Source of the DNA: Imbricaverruca yamaguchii | Lineage: Eukaryota; Arthropoda; Thecostraca; Neoverrucidae | DNA: 64,000 nucleotides | NCBI GenBank assembly: GCA_034440575.1 | Contig: JAOTOL010001638.1 | Location: forward strand, 218,501 to 282,500 | Reading direction: 5' to 3' | Shown here: positions 32,901-49,294 of the stretch, piece after piece | Layout: every line of letters starts with the position of its first letter | Numbering within the stretch: the first letter of the stretch is position 1 | Position numbers and translations under genes: made by a program | Notes under the pieces: model-generated | Database searches by the model: none | Told to the model about the DNA's origin: nothing | The model's input: the letters and a program-made list of their open reading frames with translations, nothing else

Positions 32901-35900
32901 CCATCATGTTCCTACACCCAGCTCCTTCTCCAGCAGGAACAAACATATTGGTAGGCACGGGCGTGTCAACAGAGAGTGGCGGGCAGCGACACCGGGCACG
33001 GATACTATTTCATGGCTGCCTTTGCTTCAAGCACGACACCGCGGCGGTGCTTACGCCCGTTCCACCGCCCGGCCTCCCGTGGTAGCCGGATGGAGTCGCC
33101 CGGCCTCCCGTGGTATCCAGATGGAGTCGTCTGGCCTCCTGTCGTAGCCGGATGGAGTCGCCCGGCCTCCCGTGGTAGCCGGGTGGAGTCGTCCGGCCTC
33201 CTGTGTTAGCCGGGTGGAGTCGTCTGGCCTCCCGTGGTATCCAGATGGAGTCGTCCGGCTTCCCGTGGTATCCAGATAGAGTCGTCTGGCCTCCTGTGGT
33301 AGCCGGATAGAGTCGTCCGGCCTCCCGTGGTATCCAGATGGAGTCGCCGGGCCTCCCGTGGTATCCAGATGGAGTCGTCTGGCCTCCCGTGGTAGCCGGG
33401 TGGAGTCGCCCGGCCTCCCGTGGTAGCCGGATGGAGTCGCCCGGCCTCCCGTGGTATCCAGATGGAGTCGTCTGGCCTCCTGTGGTAGCCGGATGGAGTC
33501 GCCCTGCCTCCTGTGGTAGCCGGGTGGAGTCGTCTGGCCTCCCGTGGTATCCAGATGGAGTCGTCCGGCTTCCCGTGGTATCCAGATAGAGTCGTCTGGC
33601 CTCCTGTGGTAGCCGAATGGAGTCGTCCGGCCTCCCGTGGTATCCAGATGGAGTCGCCGGGCCTCCCGTGGTATCCAAATGGAGTCGTCTGGCCTCCCGT
33701 GGTAGCCGGGTGGAGTCGCCGGGCTTCCCGTGGTATCCAGATGGAGTCGTCTGGCCTCCCGTGGTATTCAGATGGAGTCGTCCAGCCTCCCGTGGTATCC
33801 AGATGGAGTCGTACGCTCTCGTGTCGCCTGCGGCCGGTGGGCCACTGCTCGAACACCAGCGCCGCTGGCGACATGACAAGGTCTGATCAGCAGAACTAGA
33901 TGAAAGCAGAGCAGCTACGGTCGCGATGACAGGAAGGAGTAACCTTCCGGACGCTTCGTGGGCCGATCGGCTAATTGCTGGGCTCGGGAGACTGCCAACA
34001 CTACCGCAGGCAGCCAACCTTGCCAACTGAGTATGAAGGCTACTAAACCGGAAACCGGGCATGGACGATATGGATGCTCAGGGTCGGTGATCCTGTAGCA
34101 GAGAGCACAGGCGCTGAGGCGTGAGCCGGCGGCGGAGGCACTTGGCGCTTCCTCGGCATCATTGGCGCTTCCTAGACGGGATCCCCTCCCAGTAAGGCCT
34201 ATTAAAATTATATCTGTAAGTGAAACATGCTGTATTTTCCCTTCTTGTTTTTGATGTGCTGCTCTGTTAAAGCATCTGCATGGCCAGCCGATTGTTCTTC
34301 TTCTTTCCAGACGCTGCTGAACAAGGCGTCCGCGTACCTGTACACGTCGACCAATCGGCGCGCGTTCTTCAGCGACGTCACGGTGGTGGTGCCCAGCTCG
34401 TGGCCGCGAAGTTGCACGGGTGGCGGCCCGCCCGGTCAGGCCACCACCGAGAGCTACCTGACGTCTGACGTGCGGCTGAGCACGGCGCACCCGGTGTACG
34501 GCTCGGCGCCGTGGACCCGCCAGTGGGGCCTGTGCGGCCAGCCGGGCGCCTTCATCCAGATTGACGCCGAATATGTCGCCGCAGGCGATAATGAAACTTA
34601 CGGCAGCCAAGGTGAGCTCGGCTACGCAAAACTGTGCGCTCAGTTGATTGGCTCTGCATGTGTCTCATCCGAATCGAGAGCGCCGTTTAACCACGTCCAT
34701 CTCGGCGCGCCCATGCCCGTGATTAATCCGTCAGCCTACTGATCACCTTCTCGTCAGTCTTTCCGCACGGTCCGGGCGCACTGTCGGCACCACCCGAGAC
34801 ACCGTGTGGACCGTTCAGGCCCTATTCCATTAACCCGCGATAATTCGTCCGCTGCTTCGCGGGACTTCCCCACTGATGCTTCTACTGATCGTTCAAGAGT
34901 ACCTCGGCACTCACATATCGCCCTTCGCAGCCGCAATTTGAGCCGCCTGGCTCGTGATTTACCTGTTTTGCTCTTAATTTGGCCGCCTTGCTCATTATTT
35001 ATACCCGCGTTTACTCGGTGCCAGCTATCACCTCCCTCACGTCAGTCAGTCGCCAGCAGGTCTAGCACGTTCTCAACTGTGCATGCCTGCACGGGTGGAC
35101 AGGAAACTACCGCCACGTGTTGAACCCACCGCCATCACGTCAATAGCAGACGCAAACCGCTGCCAGCACGCCTATGGCAGACACAACCCGCTGCCAGCAC
35201 GCCTATGGCAGACACAACCCGCTGCCAGCACGCCAATGCCAGACATAACCCGCTGCCAGCACGCCAATGGCAGACACAACCCGCTGCCAGCACGCCTATG
35301 GCAGACATAACCCGCTGCCACCACGTCAATGACAGACACAAACCGCTGTCAGCACGTCAACGGCAGACGCTCAACAGCCAGCAAAGTGTCGCACGCAATA
35401 TTGCATACTTGTGTGTGGCCCAGTGTTCACAGCTGCTACCCTGTTCTCGCAGCACGCGCTCTGGTTCGCGAGTGGGCCAAGTACCGGTGGGGCGTGTTCG
35501 AGGAAGTCGGCTATCCGGAGGACCCCCTGTACCCCTCCTTCTACCGGACCACCACCGACCAGTGGAGGCCGACCGGCTGCTCCGACGGCACCGTCATCGG
35601 AGATATATATCCGTGAGTATACTGGCTCAACACAGCTGCATCTCCGTGAGTATGCTGGCTCAACACAGCTGTATCTCCGTGAGTATACTGGCTCAACACA
35701 GCTGCATCTCCGTGAGTATACTGACTCAACACAGCTGCATCTCCGTGAGCATACTGGCTCAACACAGCTGCATCTCCGTGAGTATGCTGGCTCAACACAG
35801 CTGCATCTCCGTGAGTATGCTGGCTCAACACAGCTGCATCTCCGTGAGTATGCTGGCTCAACACAGCTGCATCTCCGTGAGTATGCTGGCTCAACACAGC

Positions 35901-49294: not shown

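Follow-up and report, generated by a model that had tools for sequence, protein, structure and literature searches.

Six of the 18 splice junctions in a barnacle CLCA gene are crossed by tandem arrays, at the donors of exons 3, 4, 7, and 8 and at the acceptors of exons 6 and 10. This observation extends boundary-spanning minisatellites to an arthropod and presents a single gene with six independent cases, at donors as well as acceptors. Arrays of this kind are already in print, as the "mirages" of amphioxus and the VNTR of human ABCA7; their crowding within one gene is unusual. We consider it likely that the CLCA arrays are mirages, that is, chance tandem duplications that crossed a junction, were amplified by minisatellite turnover, and were tolerated since the copy at the exon edge is the one spliced. 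With many identical sites in competition (20 of the 21 clean copies at exon 3), the gene is a natural experiment on the choice that the spliceosome makes among them. If the pattern is genome-wide, it would become possible to test directly both a mutational bias at junctions and the origin of new introns by duplication.

CLCA is an ion-channel-regulator gene; it has 10 exons and lies at positions 5762-49294 on the forward strand of the window, by which we mean the whole 64-kb stretch of DNA that was analysed. The protein joined from exons 2-10 matched the Pfam family CLCA (PF08434, E = 4.6e-45). Its nearest relatives were proteins from Pollicipes pollicipes (76 and 70% identity), followed by CLCA proteins from Amphibalanus amphitrite (68, 65, 56, and 52%, with the 52% match covering 75% of the query) and a further related CLCA protein, P0006 (50%). 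The P. pollicipes values seem too low for the DNA to come from P. pollicipes, unless the gene is a further paralogue. The exon edges were set from the reading frame and from tblastn with related CLCA proteins. tblastn placed exon 1 at about 5.8 kb, which gives intron 1 a length of 28 kb and the gene the extent stated above; the full frame encodes 1168 residues and contains no internal stops. The start of exon 1 was taken as 5780 in the whole-array and two-unit founder nulls described below, and as 5762 in the single-unit null, the frame tests, and the setting tests. Outside CLCA, none of the 10 open frames tested, from the 180 frames in the window, had a Pfam match at E ≤ 0.1; thus, no second gene was found among these.

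Tandem arrays were detected with TRF and with an ungapped lag scan, which omits arrays explained by periods of 1-8 bp and matches below 0.6 of the unit. By the lag scan, the window contains 44 arrays with units of 12-200 bp, which occupy 13.2 kb of the 64 kb. Thirty-two of the arrays were counted inside the gene, 6 spanning junctions and 26 within introns; these counts of separate arrays omit two decayed tails of the 33-bp family, at 36623-36990 and 37141-37240. TRF at a score of 50 detected five of the six junction arrays, and the lag scan recovered the same five as well as the two-copy duplication at exon 8. At five detector settings, the number of junction-spanning arrays was 6, 6, 5, 5, and 6 (the exon 4 array was lost at the two strictest), and at none of the five did an array lie entirely within coding exons. 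The junction arrays are in introns 3, 4, 5, 7, 8, and 9, each at a single end of its intron. The exons and the junction arrays are listed in Table 1.

Table 1. Exons of the CLCA gene and tandem arrays at its splice junctions (positions in the window; a slash marks the exon-intron border)
Feature	Positions	Strand	Remarks
CLCA exon 1	5762-5956	+	signal peptide and start; frame open, next in-frame ATG at 5786
CLCA exon 2	34311-34611	+	junctions without array
CLCA exon 3	35453-35612	+	ends in donor CC/GTGAGT
33-bp array from exon 3 donor (35612/35613)	35610-36529	+	3 exonic bp (TRF); 21 clean copies, 20 with identical donor 9-mer
Decayed tail of 33-bp exon 3 array	36530-37261	+	runs away from exon
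CLCA exon 4	40222-40327	+	
43-bp array across exon 4 donor (40327/40328)	40304-40450 (TRF 40304-40392)	+	24 exonic bp; 1 further good copy and 2 decayed
CLCA exon 5	41648-42238	+	junctions without array
45-bp array across exon 6 acceptor (42859/42860)	42642-42889	+	30 exonic bp
CLCA exon 6	42860-43276	+	
CLCA exon 7	43536-43712	+	
71-bp array across exon 7 donor (43712/43713)	43674-44313	+	39 exonic bp; 9 copies, 9/9 with TCG/GTGAGC
CLCA exon 8	44516-44621	+	
74-bp two-copy duplication across exon 8 donor (44621/44622)	44587-44729	+	34 exonic bp; lag scan, absent from TRF at score 50
CLCA exon 9	46492-46899	+	junctions without array
51-bp array across exon 10 acceptor (48248/48249)	47786-48265	+	17 exonic bp
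CLCA exon 10, through stop codon	48249-49294	+	

In the sequence-only reading of this DNA, each of the six junctions had been placed at the edge of an array whose unit copies that junction. The six arrays were confirmed, and the description holds strongly for five of them, which include 17-39 exonic bp. The array at exon 3 has 3 exonic bp (7 bp by the lag scan, mismatches included) and in effect begins at the donor; it is thus an intronic array with its start at the donor and resembles the human ABCA7 VNTR in this. The unit at exon 4, which had been given as about 42 bp, measured 43 bp. We also agree that the unit types are unrelated. The sole cross match at E ≤ 1 was an 8-bp word that the unit at exon 7 shares with that at exon 10, and no junction unit matched the rest of the window outside its own array at E ≤ 0.01, a search in which decayed old copies could be missed.

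The arrays differ in their state of preservation. The 33-bp array erodes with distance from exon 3 over a further 0.7 kb, where 27 decayed pieces were recovered (36312-37261), and its edge copy is not distinct from the sibling copies. Decay away from the exon was also seen in the exon 4 and exon 6 arrays, and none in the exon 7 array (partly by eye). The donor-like word GTRAG occurs 28, 1, 0, 9, 4, and 8 times in the array ranges at exons 3, 4, 6, 7, 8, and 10, respectively; by eye, only two of the four words at exon 8 represent the donor. The exon 6 array belongs to the acceptor type and has CAG at six repeat positions. In the exon 10 array, the units combine an acceptor with 14 exon-like nt and the donor word GTGAGA, and the odd copy is the one adjoining the exon (partly by eye). 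Inspected by eye, this 51-bp unit consists of a branch-point-like CTGAC, a pyrimidine-rich stretch, CAG, the 14 exon-like nt, and GTGAGA; together these make up a complete pseudo-microexon, and 37 nt separate it from the next. As for microhomology, again by eye, the 71-bp array is 9 × 71 + 1 bp long, so the overlap of the founder ends is at most 1 bp; the ends of the other arrays are decayed or uneven.

The edge copies yield the protein form found in the relatives. Among the copies tried, the frame stays open through the edge copy alone at five of the six junctions. An early stop followed from inner donors at exon 3 (5 of 5 tried, of the 20 inner clean copies), from another copy at exons 4 (2 of 2 tried), 7 (8 of 8), and 8 (1 of 1), and from upstream acceptors at exon 10 (9 of 9). 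Of the upstream acceptors at exon 6, the nearest three are in frame and would add 15, 30, and 45 amino acid residues, and the two farthest shift the frame. As it can be read in frame for three copies, the exon 6 array may not be silent. The three in-frame, stop-free copies upstream of exon 6 lie at 42725-42859, and use of an upstream acceptor there would add 15-residue repeats of the ARLVVVFYPSSIWLQ type.

The same donor 9-mer is found in edge and inner copies at exon 3 (20 of 21 clean copies), exon 7 (9 of 9), and exon 8 (2 of 2). The 9-mer alone therefore cannot select the edge copy, which is probably selected by its position relative to the exon. No insertions were observed at the six array junctions in seven related CLCA proteins (six from barnacles and P0006). 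Most of exon 8 is missing from P0002, a P. pollicipes protein that retains just the last residues of that exon, and P0004 shows a gap of three residues close to where exon 4 ends. We considered the loss in P0002 as a sign of a duplicated exon 8 end in P. pollicipes and set it aside, because an internal AG in exon 8 explains the loss equally well.

The array copies seem to preserve earlier states of the exon ends, and at exons 4 and 7 the edge and the array have separate histories. Set against the consensus of copies 2-9, the exon 7 edge copy shows four differences in its 39 exonic positions and none in its 32 intronic ones, as expected if the coding part alone is held. The edge copy is thus left out of homogenisation, a feature counted on the exon 7 array only. 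Copies 2-9 of this array encode Ile at a site where the exon in the window encodes Val, and six of the seven relatives have Ile. At exon 4, copies 2-4 encode Gln and the exon in the window Pro; Gln is found in four of the seven relatives (P0001, P0002, P0003, and P0005) and Pro in none of the seven. In the simplest reading of these sequences, the duplications at exons 4 and 7 would predate the changes to Pro and Val in the exons. The comparable site at exon 8 is ambiguous (Val in four and Ile in two of the seven relatives), and some changes in the copies have no support in any relative, namely, Gln-Cys for Glu-Arg at exon 7 and Trp at exon 8; the argument from old states therefore rests on two sites.

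In the explanation that we prefer, each array would be founded by a short tandem duplication that happened to cross a CLCA exon-intron border in a stretch rich in minisatellites. One complete border would stay at the exon edge, and the remaining copies would fall within the intron. As a complete border is retained there, the protein would remain unchanged provided that splicing takes place at the edge copy (at donors the first copy, at acceptors the last), which is presumably the copy used in the RNA, and the additional copies would be neutral. The array would then expand and homogenise as any minisatellite does, with the edge copy constrained by the coding sequence. The earlier suggestion that the extra sites are tolerated fits this explanation. 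The accompanying suggestion that arrays elsewhere are lost does not agree with the census, as 26 of the 32 arrays in the gene sit inside introns.

Whether six junction-spanning arrays exceed chance depends on how the arrays are placed. When whole arrays were placed anywhere in the gene, 3.0 junction-spanning arrays were expected (P = 0.07). When whole arrays were allowed to overlap coding sequence by at most one unit, 0.62 were expected, and none of 5000 draws reached six. Two-unit founders placed anywhere in the gene gave an expectation of 1.07 (P = 4e-4), and single founder units, with wholly coding ones excluded, gave 0.56 of 32 (P = 1.4e-5). When at least 6 bp were required on both sides of the junction, the single-unit null expected 0.47 and 5 were observed (P = 8e-5). 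In the part from exon 2 to exon 10, six of the nine arrays reach across a junction. The expectation there was 2.35 for whole arrays placed freely (P = 0.0055), 0.57 and 0.76 for the other nulls, and 0.45 for single-unit founders, or 0.70 with GC weights (P = 1e-5). The choice of null matters, and the last three of the four nulls are nearer to how such arrays arise and survive. The earlier proposal of six independent arrays at one kind of site is thus supported, in that the number exceeds the founder-type nulls in CLCA and does not exceed free placement of whole arrays. We rejected GC bias as the source of the enrichment, because the GC-weighted expectation was still 0.54 for the gene (P = 1.2e-5) and 0.70 for exons 2-10. 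The mean GC content is 0.60 in the 36 non-junction arrays of the window, 0.65 in the exons, and 0.45 in the unarrayed DNA of introns 2-9.

Junctions in CLCA were struck five to ten times above the founder-null expectation, which the choice of this gene by a scan may explain in part; since the gene was picked for its pattern, the P values describe CLCA only and do not establish a genome-wide rule. An enrichment above the founder nulls implies that chance and tolerance are not the full account, unless CLCA is an extreme picked from many genes.

Mirages in the Adh gene of amphioxus were reportedly first described in Nucleic Acids Research in 2002. In two papers (PMC3087553, PMC3902484), mirages are minisatellite-like tandem duplications over exon-intron boundaries in Adh3, the globin genes BflGb6 and BflGb9, PGBD5, and troponin C, and RT-PCR suggests that they are regularly spliced (PMC3087553). 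As described there, they share with the CLCA arrays the position across boundaries, at donor and acceptor ends, the many copies with AG/GT signals, and the exemption of cluster-boundary units from homogenisation. In CLCA, the arrays span boundaries, many but not all copies carry splice signals, and the boundary copy is unhomogenised in one array, that of exon 7. The CLCA case differs in that it concerns a barnacle, with 6 of 18 junctions affected in one gene, units of 33-74 bp, and up to 21 clean copies.

The closest match to the exon 3 array is the VNTR in intron 18 of human ABCA7, since the array begins at the donor in both. The VNTR has a 25-bp unit and 23.7 copies in the reference, and it opens with the GT of the donor of exon 18 (PMC5954066). 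Use of the donor in the next copy adds one unit and a frameshift, and accounts for about 2% of transcripts (PMC5954066). Skipping of exon 19 affects 12 to 45% of transcripts depending on the tissue and grows with array length (PMC5954066); long arrays starting at a donor therefore need not be silent. The VNTR is polymorphic, from about 12 to about 427 copies, and is tied to disease risk (PMC5954066). Polymorphism and splicing effects are described for one junction in ABCA7; CLCA has six junctions in one haplotype.

Intron gain by tandem duplication of AG/GT has been described for novel intron positions in Drosophila (PMC2891723) and is reported for RdRp in potato (PMC4974935). These cases resemble the CLCA arrays as short tandem duplications that multiply splice signals; however, the new intron there arises within an exon, whereas the CLCA arrays are in existing introns and no new intron was seen in the gene. 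Two barnacle genome papers treat repeats in general terms in the passages concerned (PMC8917513, PMC8416341). In a survey of Daphnia, long-unit repeats are less dense in introns than elsewhere (PMC3152781), in contrast to the CLCA gene. Among the listed matches from the open-access literature, we found no report of boundary-spanning arrays in a crustacean or other arthropod.

Tolerated mirages may not be the only process at work. A border- or splicing-tied process, such as R-loops or breaks at exon edges, could raise the rate of duplication at junctions and produce mirages genome-wide in the lineage; we consider such a bias possible but doubtful, and it would supplement rather than exclude the preferred reading. 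It is favoured by 6 of 32 arrays against 0.5-1.1 under the founder nulls, a result that is insensitive to GC content and changes little with detector settings, and by the several amphioxus genes with mirages (PMC3087553, PMC3902484). It is weakened by its origin in a single gene picked for its pattern, in which free placement of whole arrays already expects half the observed number. Moreover, away from junctions the arrays hold no concentration of donor-like words, so that a bias would depend on context and not on sequence. The 26 non-junction arrays hold GTRAG four times on the gene strand and five times on the opposite strand, which lends no support to the earlier idea that splice-junction sequence itself is prone to slippage. 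The junction arrays, counted together with both tails of the 33-bp family (8 rows), hold 49 and 1, and of the 99 GTRAG words on the gene strand of CLCA, 46 are outside any array. Counts of acceptor words were uninformative: non-junction arrays have 5 on the gene strand and 59 on the other, and junction arrays have 5 and 2, respectively. That a duplication process favours exon-intron borders in some or all barnacle genomes, with mirages widespread there, seems unlikely to us. If true, mirages would be a standing source of intron growth, of in-frame protein variation of the exon 6 type, and occasionally of new introns, and they would have evolved independently in arthropods and lancelets.

Selection could maintain the extra sites as spares or as a regulator of splicing level, in line with the earlier suggestion that they are kept because they are useful. 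The identical donors at exons 3 and 7, the three in-frame copies at exon 6, and the altered splicing with a longer ABCA7 array (PMC5954066) agree with this idea, which we nevertheless judge improbable. Homogenisation alone predicts the identity of clean copies, and in the decayed tail at exon 3 the donor columns are kept no better than the others (0.84 versus 0.82 match to the consensus; 0.67 for the G and 0.94 for the T of GT); decayed copies are few in the other arrays. GTRAG has also been lost from the inner exon 4 copies, and the inner copies tried lead to early stops at five of the six junctions. Still less probable is that the arrays are remnants of intron gain by tandem duplication of exonic AG/GT, and that some of the introns are young. 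The order of acceptor, 14 nt, and donor word in the exon 10 units is the arrangement of that model; however, each array is at a single end of its intron, and the search at E ≤ 0.01, in which old decayed copies could be missed, gave no match for any unit at the opposite end of the intron or in the rest of the window. Within that search, none of the six arrays showed a new intron flanked by both copies of a duplicated exonic AG/GT. Minisatellite copy numbers are often wrong in assemblies, and those of the junction arrays may be wrong as well. An origin of the arrays themselves by misassembly, with repeats collapsed or falsely expanded, is scarcely credible, even though an amphioxus globin case appeared misassembled in a draft genome (PMC3087553). 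The copies differ from one another, the tail at exon 3 erodes with distance, and copies carry the exon states of relatives; misassembly makes none of these.

Other repeats were observed in the window. An open frame of 456 residues at 114-1484 consists mostly of a 30-bp array, is open in several frames, and has no Pfam match; it is probably a non-coding minisatellite only. Intron 1 (5957-34310) is packed with GC-rich minisatellites, 23 in the lag scan, has none at either of its junctions, and includes an 861-bp array of the pentanucleotide CGGCT at 10474-11334 (TRF). About 12 kb apart, at 51855-52161 and 63853-63968, two arrays of one family lie in opposite orientation, with units based on CATAACCTCCACAGG and its reverse complement (by eye).
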